Translations under genes and position numbers: made by a program | The notes under the pieces: model-generated | Told to the model about the DNA's origin: nothing | The model's input: only the letters and a program-made list of their open reading frames with translations | Databases searched by the model: none | Part shown: piece after piece, positions 56,203 to 63,055 of the stretch | Layout: each line of letters begins with the position of its first letter | Position numbering within the stretch: position 1 is the stretch's first letter | Source of the DNA: Planctomycetota bacterium | GTDB lineage: Bacteria; Planctomycetota; Phycisphaerae; Phycisphaerales; UBA1924 | Assembly: GCA_033763975.1 (NCBI GenBank) | Contig: JANRJM010000018.1 | Span: 124,001 to 188,000, forward strand | Length of the DNA: 64,000 nt | Direction of reading: 5' to 3'

Positions 56203-56496
56203 CTAGGCGAGGCTCGGGCGGTCGCTGGGGGTCTGCCCCGCGGTGCCGGGGGCCAACGCGCGCGCCCGCGCCGTCCAGCGCCGGGTGTCGGACTCGTTCA
56301 TGAGGGGCTGGGCCGCCTCGCGCGTCTCGACGAGCCGCGCGACGTACGGCAGGCACAGGCGGCACGACGTGCCGCAGCCGGTCTCGAGCTGCAGCTCGGC
56401 GAGTCCGGCGCCCTGGAGGATGCGTTCGAGCAGCTCGGCGAAGAGCACGTCGTGGCAGACGCACTTGGTCACCAGGATCGGGGAGGGGTCGTACAT
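56203..56496 (-). CDS. Bfd-like [2Fe-2S]-binding protein, last gene of the riboswitch operon
   Basis: The 97-residue protein has the BFD-like domain at residues 10-55: KCVCHDVLFAEL, then a helix and ETGCGTSCRLCLPYV. The pattern C-x-C...C-x2-C with the Cys placement of bacterioferritin-associated ferredoxin binds a [2Fe-2S] cluster. The basic C-terminal part of about 40 residues (SDTRRWTARARAL...) is an extra tail. It starts 2 bp after the stop of the pseudopilin gene. It could donate electrons to iron- or cobalt-containing partners, but the target is unknown. Confidence 0.85.
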   Translation of the reverse strand: MYDPSPILVTKCVCHDVLFAELLERILQGAGLAELQLETGCGTSCRLCLPYVARLVETREAAQPLMNESDTRRWTARARALAPGTAGQTPSDRPSLA

Positions 56497-56498
56497 CG

Positions 56499-57311
56499 CT
56501 AGCGCCACTCCGCGGCGTCGGGGACATAGTGCGGGTCGTTTGTCTCGCCCACCGATCCCACCGCGTGGGTGGTGACGCGGATCCACTGGGGGATCGCCCG
56601 CACACCGACGACACTTCCATCGGCTCGTGCGGTGTTGGAGCTTCCCGGCTTCGACGGTCCTCGCGCATGACGGAACGCGGTCGTCGGATAGTCGTTGCGG
56701 GTCCACCCGGCGCCGTCGAACAACAAGGGCGGGTCGAGCAGCGCGGTGTTGCGCGGCTGCGTGGTGGGGAGGAGCGCGTCCGCGAAGACGAACAGGTCGG
56801 CGGGCCGCTGGATCTCGAAGAGGCGTCGCCAGGGGCGCCGGCTGATCTGATCCGCCCATCCGGGTGTGCGCGAGGGGCACAAGTAATACCCGTTGTAGCC
56901 GTACGTGCTCGTGGGCTGCGCGAATCCCCCTTGCGGGCGGTACGAGCCCCAGGGCTGCGAGGGGCATTCGAAGACGGAGTTGCGCGCGAGCTCGGCGCCC
57001 ATGTAGGGGGCGATGAATCCCCGCTCGTAGCGGACTTCCTGCAGCGGCCCGCCCACGGCGCCCCACCAGTAGACGGGGTTGCCCGAGCCGATGTCGGCCT
57101 CGCTCCAGTAGGCGAGCGGCATGGCGCGGTCGCGGAAGTCGTTGGCGTAGGCGGTCCAGGCGGTGACGAGCTGGCGCGTGTTCGAGAGGCACGCCGCGGC
57201 CCGTCCGGCCTCCCGCGCCCCGCGGAGCGTGGGGAGCAGGATGGCCAGCAGCAGCGCGATGATCGCGGTGCACACGAGCGCCTCGATGAGCGAGAAGGCG
57301 CGTCGCGTCAT
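56499..57311 (-). CDS. Pseudopilin-like protein in the cobalamin-riboswitch operon
   Basis: The 270-residue product begins MTRRAFSLIEALVCTAIIALLLAILLPTL, a strong prepilin/pseudopilin signal with Phe+1, Glu+5 and a hydrophobic helix, followed by a CLSNTRQLVTAWTAYANDFRD helix. The C-terminal part includes a pilin-like display (LFVFADALLP, ARADGSVVGV). The start overlaps the propeller gene (ATGA, 57308-57311), so translation is coupled. Secreted pseudopilins in this group may form short surface fibres. No ATPase or secretin is encoded nearby. Confidence 0.87.
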   Translation of the reverse strand: MTRRAFSLIEALVCTAIIALLLAILLPTLRGAREAGRAAACLSNTRQLVTAWTAYANDFRDRAMPLAYWSEADIGSGNPVYWWGAVGGPLQEVRYERGFIAPYMGAELARNSVFECPSQPWGSYRPQGGFAQPTSTYGYNGYYLCPSRTPGWADQISRRPWRRLFEIQRPADLFVFADALLPTTQPRNTALLDPPLLFDGAGWTRNDYPTTAFRHARGPSKPGSSNTARADGSVVGVRAIPQWIRVTTHAVGSVGETNDPHYVPDAAEWR

Positions 57312-58963
57312 GGCGTCACCGGGGCGGCGGGGGTGCGGACGGGAAGTCGGACGCGGGTGATGAGCCAGGCGCGGTCGGCGGCGTCCGTCACGCCGCTGGC
57401 GTCGAGATCGCGCATGCCAAGGCCCGTCTCCCACGCGTACAGGTCGTCGATCGTGGACGAGCCGTCGGCGTTGAGGTCGAGCGTGCCCGCCGGGATGCCC
57501 AGCGCGCCCAGCCCGCCCGCGCCGGTGGCGAAGAGCATGAGCCCGCCCGCGGCGGGCGACGCGCCGATGCCCGGGTGCGAGGCGCGCACGAACGACGGGG
57601 CGGAGGGGTGCTCCGAGAGGTCGAGCAGGAGCAGATCGGACGGATGGGTGTTGGCGGCGCCGGTGCCGGGCACGCCGCACGCGGCGAGCGTCGATCCGGC
57701 GAACTCGAAGACGACGGGCTGGTTCGACCAGCCGCCGACGCGCAGGTACTCGCCGGGATCGATCGTGCCGTCGTGATCGGCATCGACCCACGAGTCGAGC
57801 GCGGAGTCCCAGACGGTGGCGACGGTCGCGCCGGCGTCGGCGTACAGGCGCACCGATGGCACGCTGCCGAAGCCGGAAATGCCGCCCGAGAGCAGGATGC
57901 GCCCGCCGGGCAGCAATGCGGGAATGGCGGAGGTGCGGCTCGCGGGCGCGGACCAGACGAGCGTGCCCGAGCAGGCGTCGAGCTTGACGAGGTTGGAGTT
58001 GGTGAGGCCGCCGAAAAAGGCGTACGAGGCGGCGAAGACGTGCGGGTGCTCGCCCGGCGCGTCGGGCTCGCGGATGCTGAGCCCGCCGAAGAAGCCGGCG
58101 TCGAGCACGTTCTGGAAGGACCAGGCGGGGCAGGGCTGGCCATCGGCGAAGGCGGGGAACGCGCGCACGATGCCCGGGCCCTCGCCCTCTTCGCCGGGGG
58201 TCGAGACGTAGACCAGGCCGACGCCGCCGCGTGCGAGCGGGAGGTACGCGGGCGTGTTGCCGGATGATGCGCCGATGGGCGCGCTCCAGAGGAGTTCGCC
58301 GGGGGTCTGGGGCTCGCCGTGCTCGTTGAGGTCGTCGAGGCGGAGGCAGTGGAGCGAGGCGGCGTCGCCGAAGCCGTCGTAGTCGGTGATGAACACGCGG
58401 GCCGTGCCGGGGCCTTCGTCCACAACGAGCGGCGATGCGTTGACAACGGGGCGCGGGAGTTGGGTCTTCCAAAGGACGACGCCGTCGTTCAGGCGCAGGG
58501 CGGCGACTTCCGAGCCGGAGGCGATGACGACCAGCGCCCGCGCCGCATCGATCGCGGGGGTGCTGAAGGAATCAAGCGAGGGCGCGTCGATGGGGGTTGA
58601 CCATCGCGGCTCGCCCGTGTCGGCCGCGAAGGCGAGCGCGTACGGCGCGCCCGGAGGCTCGCCGGGGCGCGAGACGCGCCCGACGCCGATGACGAGGCTT
58701 GCCTGACCCTCGCCCGCGACGACCATGCCGGCGTTCGGGATGAACCAGACCGGCGAGCCCGTGTCGTCGGCAGAAGCGGTCCAGCGTCGGGGCGTGAGGG
58801 GCGGCGCGGGGCGATGAACGAGCGCGGCGCGGGACGGGCCTCCGGCCAGCCCGGGCCACGCGTCGGACGCGCCCGATTGCGCGCCCGCGTGCCCGGAGAA
58901 AGCCCAGAGCGCTGCGGCAGCAGCGCTCGAGGCCGCCCTAACTCTTCCGCCGTGTGTACGCAC
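57308..58963 (-). CDS. Secreted PQQ-like beta-propeller with dockerin-like C-terminus
   Basis: The 551-residue protein has a signal peptide (AASSAAAAALWAFSGHAGA) and several propeller blades: PYALAFAADTGEPRWSTPI, VAALRLNDGVVLWKTQL and LVKLDACSGTLVWSAP, each with the GxxxW pattern of PQQ-like repeats. The last 60 residues hold two Asp-rich loops (DLNADGSSTIDDL, DLDASGVTDAADRAWL), like a dockerin or EF-hand tail. It is an extracellular, non-enzymatic-looking scaffold or ligand-binding propeller. It follows the surface beta-sandwich gene by 49 bp and overlaps the pseudopilin start. Confidence 0.88.
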   Translation of the reverse strand: MRTHGGRVRAASSAAAAALWAFSGHAGAQSGASDAWPGLAGGPSRAALVHRPAPPLTPRRWTASADDTGSPVWFIPNAGMVVAGEGQASLVIGVGRVSRPGEPPGAPYALAFAADTGEPRWSTPIDAPSLDSFSTPAIDAARALVVIASGSEVAALRLNDGVVLWKTQLPRPVVNASPLVVDEGPGTARVFITDYDGFGDAASLHCLRLDDLNEHGEPQTPGELLWSAPIGASSGNTPAYLPLARGGVGLVYVSTPGEEGEGPGIVRAFPAFADGQPCPAWSFQNVLDAGFFGGLSIREPDAPGEHPHVFAASYAFFGGLTNSNLVKLDACSGTLVWSAPASRTSAIPALLPGGRILLSGGISGFGSVPSVRLYADAGATVATVWDSALDSWVDADHDGTIDPGEYLRVGGWSNQPVVFEFAGSTLAACGVPGTGAANTHPSDLLLLDLSEHPSAPSFVRASHPGIGASPAAGGLMLFATGAGGLGALGIPAGTLDLNADGSSTIDDLYAWETGLGMRDLDASGVTDAADRAWLITRVRLPVRTPAAPVTP

Positions 58964-59012
58964 AACCGCGTGCCACGCCTTTCGACGGGGCGCGCGTGCT
59001 CACTCTCCAACT

Positions 59013-59918
59013 TCAGAGCCCGCGGCGTCGCCCGCGCAAGAGCGGGAGCACGCCGAGGAGAATCGCGGAGGACGGGGACGGGATGGGCGAGACGTCGGAG
59101 ATCGCGTCGATCTCGAACGCCGCGGGAGACGTGGAGACGTTGATGATGCGGACGTAGCGGGCGGAGGCAAGGCCCGACCCGGCGAGATCGAAGCCGGTGC
59201 CGCCGCCGGAGCCGGCGTACCCGGCGATGAGTTCGGCGAACGTGCGCCCGCGGGGGTCGAAGGTGGGATCGACCGGGCGGGTGAAATCGGTGAGCACCTG
59301 CCCGGGGGCAGGGGCGTAGGCGTCGGTGAGGTCGAGGAAGCCGAGCGTGGGGAAGAGGGCGTCGGCGCCTGGGCCGAGGGTGCGCCAGTCGATGAAGTCG
59401 TTTGAGACCTGGACGACGGGCGCGACGCCGACGCCGAAGAGGGCGCCGTCGGGGCGGACCTGGCCCGCGGGGAAGGCGGCGTCGATGAATCCGGCGTTAC
59501 CAAACACGATGAGATCGAGGCCGAAGGGGTTGTTTGGGTCGTCGACGATGGGCTCGTCGAACTCGAGGACGAGCTGCCCGCCCGCGCCGATGGAGACGAT
59601 CTCGTCGGAGCCGAAGGCCGGGTTGAAGGGCGTGATGGCGCCGGGGAAGCCGAGCTCCTCACCCGTGAACCGCTCGGGCGCGCCCAGGGCGCGCGCGGGG
59701 AAGTTGTACCCGGGAACGGCGCCGGCGCCGGAAACGAAGCCGACCACGTGATCGGCGTAGGGGTCTGGCTCCCCCATCCGCGCCCACGCGGGCAGCGCGC
59801 TCGTGGTGAGGACCATCGACGCAACCGCCCGCACCAGCGTGCTCGGGCGGGCAGCCGGCGCACATCCGGCGGCCGGGCGCCCGCTCGAAACTCCGAAGTA
59901 CCGCACTCCGCACTCCAT
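59013..59918 (-). CDS. Surface beta-sandwich protein with PEP-CTERM-like tail, first gene after the cobalamin riboswitch
   Basis: The 301-residue protein contains a signal peptide (STLVRAVASMVLTTSALPAWA). The mature part has ALGAPERFTG, GGQLVLEFDEPIVDDP, LDLIVFGNAGF and QVSNDFIDWRTLG, a pattern shared with cell-surface proteins that in several phyla sit next to B12 transport genes (recalled, not checked). The C-terminus is SPIPSPSSAILLGVLPLLRGRRRGL, a sorting-like tail. The N-terminus is uncertain: ATG 59918 was used; ATG 59936 and a GTG at the signal peptide are alternatives. The DNA around 59890-59918 is degenerate GCGGAGT-type repeat, so the start may be inside it. Confidence 0.8.
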   Translation of the reverse strand: MECGVRYFGVSSGRPAAGCAPAARPSTLVRAVASMVLTTSALPAWARMGEPDPYADHVVGFVSGAGAVPGYNFPARALGAPERFTGEELGFPGAITPFNPAFGSDEIVSIGAGGQLVLEFDEPIVDDPNNPFGLDLIVFGNAGFIDAAFPAGQVRPDGALFGVGVAPVVQVSNDFIDWRTLGPGADALFPTLGFLDLTDAYAPAPGQVLTDFTRPVDPTFDPRGRTFAELIAGYAGSGGGTGFDLAGSGLASARYVRIINVSTSPAAFEIDAISDVSPIPSPSSAILLGVLPLLRGRRRGL

Positions 59919-60085
59919 CCGCGACCGCGGCGTCATCCCGAATCGCGCGGGATGATCCCTGCCGAAGGTACGAGCCGCTCGCGGAATAGACGGGGGTGGC
60001 CCGGCGCAGGGACAGACGCCGAACCGCTCCGCCGGCGCCCTTGCCCAAAGCCGGTGAAACCGGCCCCGGGCCCGCGAGGGCCCAA

Positions 60086-60302
60086 CAGCACACAGCCATC
60101 GGCAGGTCTTCCGGCTTCGGGCTCGGCGGGTCGCCTTCCCGGGGTGGTCGAGGTCTCGTACCTCGCTCAACCCAGTGGCTGAGGCCGGCCGAAGCCAGCC
60201 CCGTGACCCGCGTCTTCACCCGTTACGGCGGCGCGTCCGCGGTGGATTTTCACCACGCTTCCCTTTTCACCCGAGAGGCGTTCAGGCCGCCCGGGCACCG
60301 AC
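60086..60302 (-). ncRNA. Cobalamin (B12) riboswitch
   Basis: Reading the minus strand, the conserved blocks appear in order: CGGTGCC near the 5' end; GGGAAG followed by GGTGAAAATCC at about 60270-60245; CCGTAACGGGTG and CACGGGGCTGG; CAGCCACTG; and the B12 box AGCCGGAAGACCTGCC at 60117-60102. The 3' flank GATGGCTGTGTGCTG can form the closing and kissing-loop pairings. A GGGCCC hairpin (60068-60083) just downstream is a candidate expression-platform element. About 170 nt separate the B12 box from the next start codon. Family members repress B12 uptake or synthesis genes when adenosylcobalamin binds. Confidence 0.92.
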
Positions 60303-60421: not shown

Positions 60422-62794
60422 TTACGGGCACGGGCCGCCGGCGACGACATCGGTCAGCGACGCGATGTCGTCCTGGTCGGTGTTGCCGTCGGTGTTGAAG
60501 TCCGGGTCGATGCCGGTGGGGTTCGATCCCCCGCCGATGACGTCGGTGAGGTAGGCGATGTCGTCCTGATCGACGTTGCCGTCGCCGTTGAGGTCCGGGC
60601 AGCACGAGACGACGACGGTGACGGGGCTGGTCGTGAAGTTGCCGCAGGCGTTCGCCACGCGGCAGGTGTAGATGCCCGAATCACCCTGGGTGGCGGCGTC
60701 GACGACGAGCGTGCGCGTCAGGGCGGTGGGGTTGTCGGCGGGGTTGACGGGCGCGGCGTTGCGACGCCACTGGTAGGTCAGCCCCGCACTGTCGCCCGCG
60801 ACGCCGACATCCAGCACGAGCTGCGAGCCGGTGCACACGAACGTGTCGCTCGGGGGCGAGACGAGATCAAGGCAGGGGATCGCGAGCGAGAGTCGCACGC
60901 GGGTGGGATCCCGCGGCACGAGCACGCCCGGGACAGCGACCACGCCCTCGCTCTCGGCCGGCACGACGCCGCTCTGCACGACCGCGCCGGACGCGATGTC
61001 CGTCACCGTCCAGTCGACGGGCGTGCCCTCGATGGGGCGGAACTGTGCGACCTTGCGCGGGATGACGTCTGTCTTGATGCGCGGGACCGGGGCGTTGTCG
61101 ATGGCGACGCCCGAGAGTCCGGTGGCGTAGAGGGTGGCGCCCCAGGTGGTGGGGGTGTCGGTGACGCCGGTCCACTCGAAATAGCCCTCCCACGTGCCCC
61201 AGGGGTCGCCGAGGTTCGGGTTGCCGTTGCCGGGGTCGGGCTGGCGCGAGAGGGGCGTGGCGGGGTCGTGGTCGGCGTTGAAGAAGCCGGGGTAGGACTG
61301 GTTGGCGCGGTAGGTGTCGACGAGGTACTGGGCCGACGGGCGCACGGTGCGGACGGGGGCGACCCACTGGCCGATGTCGGGGCCGGGGGTGGGCTGCTCG
61401 GTGGTCCAGAGTTCGATGCCGTGCTCGCGTTCGTCCCAGGCGATCATGGTGCCGCAGCGCGAGTCGTTGATGTCGTCGAGGATGTCGCGCATGGAGGAGT
61501 TCCAGGCGGCGGCGGTGGCGACGTCGCGCTTGCCGAAGTACATGCGGGTGAAGGGGAAGTCGCGCTGCGTCGCGGAGATGCGGGTGGACGCGGTGAAGAA
61601 GTCAACGACGCGGACGGGATCGCCGTCGGGCCCGAGGACATTGCTCGCGAGGTTCTGGTCGTTGGTGCCGCGGAGGAAGTTCTCGTCGCCGGTGCTGCCC
61701 GAGGGCAGGTTGAGGGCCGGGGTGTAGCAGACGGCGGCGCAGAACCGCTCGGGGCGGAGGCGGGTGAGGTGCGACGTGCCGCGACCGCCGCCGCTGTGCC
61801 CGATCATGGCGACGCGGGTGGGGTCGAGGTCGTAGGGGGATTGCGGGCTGAGAAGCCAGTCGAGGATCCAGTGCACGCGCCGCTGGGTGAAGTTCACGAC
61901 GGTCTCGCCGTCGAGCGGCGGGACGCGCGGGAGCGAGTCGAAGGGATCAACCGAGGTGACGTAGCCGAGCCACGAGGTGTTCGAGCGGACGAGGCTGCCC
62001 TCGATGTTGGCGTAGAACGAGTCGTCGGGCGCGACGACGATGCCGTCGGTGAGCGGCAGCGAGATGGGCGCCCGCGCGGGAACGCCCGGGAGGAACAGCT
62101 CGTACTCGCCCCCGCCGCCGTGCATCGCAAAGACGCACGACAGGTCCTGGTTGGGCGGGGCGACGATGGGGCGCGCCACGGCGAAGACGTGCGGCACGCC
62201 GTTCTTGGCGGCGTTCGCGAGCACGGGGATGTCGGGCCGGGCGTTTGTGTGGTCGTCGCGTCCTTCGGCCCACACGACGAACGCGGTGTACGGGAAGCCG
62301 CCCGGCGTGAAGCCGTCGAACTGCGGGTGCGGGCGGATGGCGTCGCCGACGGGGTCGTACATGAAGGCGGCGGCGGTGCTGTTGCCGGCGTTCACCGTCG
62401 TCGAACCGGTGTCGACCACCGCGAAGAACAGGTTGCCGCTGGACCGGGGCGTGTACGCGAAGGCGCCCTCGTCGGGCGCGAGGCGGTACGTGCCGCCCGC
62501 GGGCGTGGGCAGGAGGAGCCGGGCGGCCGGGTTCAACTCCGTGAGGCGTGCGCCGGTGTACTCGGGGTAGAAGAGCCGTCCGACCCGGTCCATGTTCGCG
62601 ACGTTGACCTGCGCCGCGACGGAGGCGTAGACCTCGACGGTGTCCGTCGGGGCGGCCGGCGGCGCGGTGAACTGCCAGACGACGAACACCTGGCCCTCCG
62701 CGTACCACGAGCGGACGTTGAAGGGCTGGGCCTCCGCCGCGCCGGCGAAGGCGGCGAGCGCGAGTGCGACCGATGCGATCCGATTCCGTTGCAT
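60422..62794 (-). CDS. Secreted alpha/beta-hydrolase with Ig-like domain and dockerin-like tail
   Basis: ATG 62794 gives 790 residues. After the signal peptide (RIASVALALAAFAGAAEA) comes a region of about 230 residues, then an esterase/depolymerase-like domain with HGGGGEYELFLP (oxyanion region), GHSGGGRGTS (nucleophile Ser334) and later EREHGIELW, which may supply the catalytic His. A beta-rich part, then an Ig-like domain (FVCTGSQLVLDVGVAGDSAGLTYQWRRN), and a C-terminal dockerin-like pair (DLNGDGNVDQDDI, DFNTDGNTDQDDI) follow. It probably acts on an extracellular polymer ester. It lies upstream of the riboswitch, outside that operon. Confidence 0.85.
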   Translation of the reverse strand: MQRNRIASVALALAAFAGAAEAQPFNVRSWYAEGQVFVVWQFTAPPAAPTDTVEVYASVAAQVNVANMDRVGRLFYPEYTGARLTELNPAARLLLPTPAGGTYRLAPDEGAFAYTPRSSGNLFFAVVDTGSTTVNAGNSTAAAFMYDPVGDAIRPHPQFDGFTPGGFPYTAFVVWAEGRDDHTNARPDIPVLANAAKNGVPHVFAVARPIVAPPNQDLSCVFAMHGGGGEYELFLPGVPARAPISLPLTDGIVVAPDDSFYANIEGSLVRSNTSWLGYVTSVDPFDSLPRVPPLDGETVVNFTQRRVHWILDWLLSPQSPYDLDPTRVAMIGHSGGGRGTSHLTRLRPERFCAAVCYTPALNLPSGSTGDENFLRGTNDQNLASNVLGPDGDPVRVVDFFTASTRISATQRDFPFTRMYFGKRDVATAAAWNSSMRDILDDINDSRCGTMIAWDEREHGIELWTTEQPTPGPDIGQWVAPVRTVRPSAQYLVDTYRANQSYPGFFNADHDPATPLSRQPDPGNGNPNLGDPWGTWEGYFEWTGVTDTPTTWGATLYATGLSGVAIDNAPVPRIKTDVIPRKVAQFRPIEGTPVDWTVTDIASGAVVQSGVVPAESEGVVAVPGVLVPRDPTRVRLSLAIPCLDLVSPPSDTFVCTGSQLVLDVGVAGDSAGLTYQWRRNAAPVNPADNPTALTRTLVVDAATQGDSGIYTCRVANACGNFTTSPVTVVVSCCPDLNGDGNVDQDDIAYLTDVIGGGSNPTGIDPDFNTDGNTDQDDIASLTDVVAGGPCP

Positions 62795-63055
62795 GCTGCA
62801 CCATCCTCTGTTCGAGCAGCGCCCCGGCGGCCTCGCGAAGGTCCGGAAACCTCCCCGACGGGGCGTTGCGTGACGGGATGGTGAACGCCGGTGCGTGCCC
62901 GATATTGTCGCGCGGGCGTCAAGATCGCGCGAAGCCGCGCGGGCGACGCGGGGAGCAGTGCGGCGTGCGCAGAGAAAAGCCGCTCGACGCACGCGGCACG
63001 CCGCGGGATCGAACGGCTCGGCAATGGGCTTCTTCGTGCGGCGACGGATCGCGGG

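Follow-up and report, generated by a model that had tools for sequence, protein, structure and literature searches.

A cobalamin-riboswitch operon in Planctomycetota links a BtuH-family protein to a dedicated pseudopilin: a candidate corrinoid-capture module without a TonB-dependent receptor

Bacteroidetes are known to possess BtuH domains and surface proteins regulated by B12 (PMC8941943, PMC10404256, PMC12751083). The closest described systems, the BtuB-BtuG-BtuH loci of Bacteroides (loci 1-3 of B. theta), share with the operon analysed here control by a cobalamin riboswitch, a BtuH-family domain and an adjacent surface propeller. In Bacteroides BtuG1, the propeller is fused to a BtuH domain, an arrangement paralleled by the operons denoted below as type B, in which a propeller gene is followed by a BtuH gene. 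Unlike these loci, the operon in the window (the whole stretch of 64,000 nucleotides that was analysed) encodes no BtuB and has, instead of a lipoprotein anchor, a PEP-CTERM-like one; it adds a dedicated pseudopilin and a Bfd-like protein, and its propeller is of the BamB/PQQ_2 rather than the BtuG kind. The DUF4465/BtuJ beta-jellyrolls, which have been reported more widely, PVC bacteria included (PMC13398666), are likewise exported beta-sandwich B12 binders in riboswitch loci but constitute a different family. No prior description of an operon combining BtuH with a pseudopilin was found in the open-licence literature. To our knowledge, the acquisition of B12 by diderm bacteria that lack TonB receptors has so far received no explanation, and we know of no precedent for a role of pseudopilins in vitamin uptake. 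The reading that we favour, with a probability of about 0.6, is that of a module for corrinoid capture, repressed by B12 and independent of any TonB-dependent receptor.

The cobalamin riboswitch of the original prediction is confirmed by the Rfam covariance model: the aptamer (RF00174; 60084-60317, minus strand) scores 75.6 bits in cmscan (E=8e-17), compared with a gathering threshold of 31.5 bits, and spans the model in full (1-189). No other cobalamin riboswitch was found in the 3.27 Mb genome. The four minus-strand genes and their spacing are likewise as claimed, with a beta-sandwich protein followed by a propeller (49-bp gap), a pseudopilin (ATGA overlap) and a Bfd-like protein (2-bp gap). 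The convergent rpoC gene that comes after the last of these marks the boundary of the unit, and the scan for an intrinsic terminator at the operon end found none. The promoter that had been attributed to the operon was not confirmed: the consensus scan gave none, and TTGCGG-17-TATGCT, visible in the sequence, matches the consensus weakly. We infer from the sequence that the RF00174 element exerts B12-dependent control over the four downstream genes. The gene upstream of the riboswitch (60422-62992, minus strand) codes for an exported protein of 856 aa that resembles hydrolases and carries both an Ig domain and a dockerin-like tail.

The first gene (minus strand; stop at 59013, start uncertain, either ATG at 59918 or GTG at 59906) encodes an exported protein that profiles, an AF2 model and Foldseek assign to the BtuH domain family, in a short form that we denote type A. 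As a single sequence, it matches nothing in Pfam (DUF4465 included), NCBIfam or PDB. The profile of the family (45 homologues), searched against PDB, matches 8blw_B (E=2.6e-14), within the C-terminal BtuH domain of the BtuG1 chain in the BtuB1-BtuG1 complex, and 7biz_A (E=2.8e-10), which is BtuH2 with bound B12; its other matches are dockerin/EF-hand tails and weak chance matches. The type B sequences alone give a profile that reaches the BtuG1 H-domain of 8blw_B with E=5e-35 and BtuH2 with 1e-25, and types A and B align in hhalign with E=2.2e-25. The link of the window protein to BtuH is transitive, through type B, because the profile made of type A only does not reach the BtuH structures in PDB. 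When the window protein is modelled by AF2 (pLDDT 83.6) and searched in Foldseek, 8blw_B is the sole PDB match with an E-value below 1e-3 (7.9e-6), and BtuH2 (7biz) is not among the matches listed; the superposition on the multidomain BtuG1 chain has a poor global rmsd, probably due to the presence of several domains in the target. The search of a viral structure library gave no informative match. Membership of gene 1 in the BtuH B12-binding domain family is supported by these comparisons and goes beyond the mere fold analogy to the Bacteroidetes capture proteins that had been proposed originally.

Of the residues through which BtuH2 (BT_1956, PDB 7BIZ) contacts B12, Asn399 binds the phosphate and Gln333 the ribose (PMC8941943). 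Asn399 corresponds to the Asn in the motif VFGNA (codon 59496-59498, minus strand), which is at least 90% conserved in the alignment of 45 homologues and is kept in the window protein. The equivalent of Gln333, the Q of PAPGQ, is kept in type B, which also shares with BtuH2 the DxNGNGxxDDxW segment, and is absent from type A, the window protein included; for the contacts His476, Tyr510, Trp511 and Trp577, no conservation is evident in either type. Compared with BtuH2, the window protein is a short form without several insertions, other contact residues and the PKD domains. Corrinoid binding appears likely for the family, with less certainty for type A. At the C-terminus of the window protein (59016-59075, minus strand), a hydrophobic helix (residues 288-306 in the model) followed by an Arg-rich tail resembles a PEP-CTERM sorting or anchor signal, and four gene-1 homologues have PEP-CTERM matches in Pfam (best E 0.015).

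Of 61 genomes from the genus, family and order to which the bacterium belongs, 58 carry a cobalamin riboswitch, mostly one in each. Sixty riboswitch loci were taken, and their genes were predicted, clustered and scored with family profiles; most of the 60 retain the same gene set under the riboswitch, the outcome that the original prediction had proposed to check. In the 56 loci that extend 4.5 kb or more downstream, to which the following counts refer, the pseudopilin is the most constant gene (52 loci), followed by the gene-1 (BtuH) family (49, with both present in 48), a propeller (38, comprising 18 of the PQQ type found in the window and 20 of type c3) and the Bfd-like gene (27), whereas a TonB-dependent, BtuB-type receptor occurs once. 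The genes come in three types of order: sandwich, PQQ propeller, pilin, Bfd, as in the window (A); c3 propeller, sandwich, pilin, Bfd (B); and sandwich, pilin, Bfd (C). In one genome (G018), the operon is split in two, propeller plus pilin in one locus and BtuH plus Bfd in the other, and both halves follow a riboswitch-like element of their own (41.6 and 27.3 bits, one below the Rfam threshold). The linkage between these genes and the riboswitch is far beyond chance. An undescribed domain (A7; W-x-GSGxNxAxLVVDF...AWGYRWDG) comes first under the riboswitch in loci L041, L057, L062, L079 and L085, and in L185 (2901-5247) two copies of it are fused to a BtuH domain; this domain, which can replace BtuH, has no solved relative and is possibly another corrinoid binder.

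Gene 2 (57308-58963, minus strand) encodes an exported beta-propeller of the BamB/PQQ_2 type (PF13360, E=1.5e-9), with an AF2 model (pLDDT 86.7) for which Foldseek retrieves BamB-like propellers. Its Asp-rich C-terminal segment (57344-57496, minus strand) reads as dockerin- or EF-hand-like and has no family match. The original comparison with the surface propellers of Bacteroidetes does not extend to demonstrable kinship with BtuG: profile and structure searches gave matches to BamB/PQQ_2 and none to BtuG, and the likeness is best regarded as analogy. The type c3 propellers of the type B operons, when used as a profile, produced weak matches to a mixture of propellers and unrelated proteins, and nothing else.

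Gene 4 (56203-56496, minus strand) encodes a Bfd-like [2Fe-2S] protein with a CxC-x30-CxxC pattern and a weak Fer2_BFD match that lies below the Pfam cut-off in the window member. The identity originally suggested for it is upheld by its relatives: Fer2_BFD is recognized in 19 of 21 homologues, the four cluster cysteines (12, 14, 45, 48) are invariant in the 21 sequences, and the family profile matches Bfd structures (E=7e-5). No signal peptide or other export signal was found in this protein, and action in the cytosol, on imported corrinoid, is more probable. The invariant cysteines, along with the resemblance of the propeller to PQQ enzymes, among others, would fit a redox module in which these two proteins carry out electron transfer or dealkylation on corrinoids while the sandwich protein is secondary; we consider this highly improbable given that the propeller is closest to the non-enzymatic BamB-like propellers, is swapped for c3 or missing in many loci, and that the Bfd-like gene is present in only 27 of the 56.

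Gene 3 (56499-57311, minus strand) encodes a pseudopilin of the DUF1559 type with the prepilin motif RRA-FSLIEA (PF07963 and PF07596, both above cut-offs). The N-terminal methylation motif with Glu5, recognized by PF07963 and TIGR02532, is found in 46 of 47 homologues. Few gene families in these bacteria are as expanded, or as poorly understood, as the pseudopilins, and the profile of this pilin family (A5) has 52 matches in the genome of the window, of which the operon copy scores E=6.8e-98 and the next 2.2e-38, a gap that is not an independent test, the profile having been built from operon copies. Gene 3 shares the prepilin motif and DUF1559 with the planctomycete DUF1559/N_methyl pseudopilins and T2SS/T4P systems, and comparison of the sequences shows that, together with its operon homologues, it forms a distinct pilin subfamily tied to B12 riboswitches. 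Pseudopilins would thereby be linked to one specific nutrient.

What, then, is the B12 economy of the bacteria that carry this operon? MetH is encoded in the genome of the window, and its activation domain in 60 of the 61 genomes. CbiC, which is required for de novo corrin synthesis, was detected in none of the 61, the window's own genome included, in a search that did detect the positive controls. In the genome of the window (97% complete), there are no matches to the plug and none to the barrel of TonB receptors; apparently, then, this genome can make neither B12 nor the usual B12 receptor. The BtuB-centred analogy with Bacteroidetes that had been drawn originally accordingly fails at the transport step, and the operon may represent a new route for catching and importing B12, because synthesis and the usual receptor both appear to be missing. 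The operon is a concrete, widespread and testable candidate for such a route in B12-auxotrophic planctomycetes that have MetH, one riboswitch and no BtuB. The plug is absent from 38 of the 61 genomes, 35 of which have the BtuH family under a riboswitch, the remaining three being affected by contig ends or incompleteness. Since 18 of the 23 plug-bearing relatives also have BtuH under a riboswitch, the TonB receptor and the BtuH module are not strictly exclusive; a single genome (G048) combines a TonB receptor under a riboswitch with no BtuH match.

The capture module that we favour would operate as follows. At low intracellular cobalamin, the riboswitch would permit expression of the operon; the BtuH-like protein, held at the cell surface by its PEP-CTERM-like tail, would bind corrinoids in a pocket with the retained phosphate-contacting Asn, and the propeller would assist or offer a second surface for cargo or partner. 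Less certainly, the pseudopilin would join one of the cell's machines of the T2SS/T4P type and either display the capture proteins or, as the pseudopilus moves through a secretin, bring bound corrinoid across the outer membrane instead of BtuB. An inner-membrane permease of the FecCD type, one of which is encoded in the genome, would then import corrinoid for MetH, and the cytosolic Bfd-like protein would probably supply the electrons with which the cobalt is reduced or the upper ligand removed. A pseudopilus machine is available for the pilin to join, because secretins and many PilB/GspE-type ATPases are encoded in the genome.

The constancy of the dedicated pseudopilin, together with the absence of BtuB, suggests display by the pseudopilus or movement of cargo. 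The boldest version, a TonB-independent outer-membrane route in which the BtuH-like protein catches the corrinoid and the dedicated pseudopilus draws it through a secretin, with this route standing in for BtuB in many Planctomycetota and in related phyla, is a tentative proposal that we consider rather doubtful. Pseudopilins are numerous in these genomes and could serve in display or secretion only. About as tentatively, one could propose capture without transport by a pilus, such that corrinoids are concentrated at the surface, the pseudopilin serves secretion or display, and the outer membrane is crossed through some porin or channel. The abundance of pseudopilins and T2SS ATPases in the genome is compatible with this alternative, as is the role of BtuH in Bacteroides, which is that of an accessory binder rather than a channel (PMC8941943); the occurrence of the pseudopilin in 52 of the 56 loci and its persistence where A7 replaces BtuH (L041, L062, L079) speak against it by suggesting more than generic export. 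As for the permease, the FecCD-type gene (L105, 7084-8094, G000:C18:104k) stands alone, with no BtuF, BtuD or other ABC partner recognized beside it, and in relatives adjoins the gene for the epsilon subunit of the F1 ATP synthase. Elsewhere in the genome (L200, 6698-12144, G000:C9; also L201-L205), the gene for a BtuF-like Peripla_BP_2 protein adjoins, in divergent orientation, the genes for a secretin and a GspE-type ATPase, an arrangement conserved in several relatives; we rejected this protein as a BtuF tied to the pseudopilus, given that it has no evident signal peptide and may be there for unrelated reasons.

When 84,980 species genomes were scanned with a type B query, 80 loci were obtained (organism names are from public records, and many denote metagenome bins). 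In these 80 loci, 69 pilin matches on the same strand lie no more than 4.5 kb from the BtuH gene, a rate about six-fold that in the remainder of the loci. BtuH with pseudopilin neighbours is found in Planctomycetota, Verrucomicrobiota, Kiritimatiellota, Lentisphaerota, Hydrogenedentota and Armatimonadota, and in most of the tested loci of these phyla a cobalamin or AdoCbl-II riboswitch lies upstream. The BtuH family, described in gut Bacteroidetes, thus extends to several further phyla. It also occurs without a pilin and adjoining a TonB receptor, namely, in a Bacteroides (L160), a deltaproteobacterium (L168) and a myxobacterium (L198); the deltaproteobacterial protein belongs to type A and shares 45% identity with that of the window, and its gene is divergent from the riboswitch-led receptor gene. 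Surface-type proteins with dockerin and PEP-CTERM-like features, in an operon with no classical transport gene, might also point away from uptake altogether, to a surface or biofilm structure whose expression tracks cobalamin status; this is improbable in view of the BtuH-family homology, the presence, in other phyla, of the same domain next to BtuB-type receptors, and the combination of B12 auxotrophy with a single riboswitch. The corrinoid-capture device of the original prediction gains strong support from BtuH homology combined with conservation under riboswitches across several phyla, and capture of corrinoids by a BtuH-family surface protein is a well-supported reading of these sequences. 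In a Hydrogenedentes contig (L150, 1226-4126), a BtuH domain and a pseudopilin are encoded in one open frame, which reflects either a fusion or a lost stop codon.
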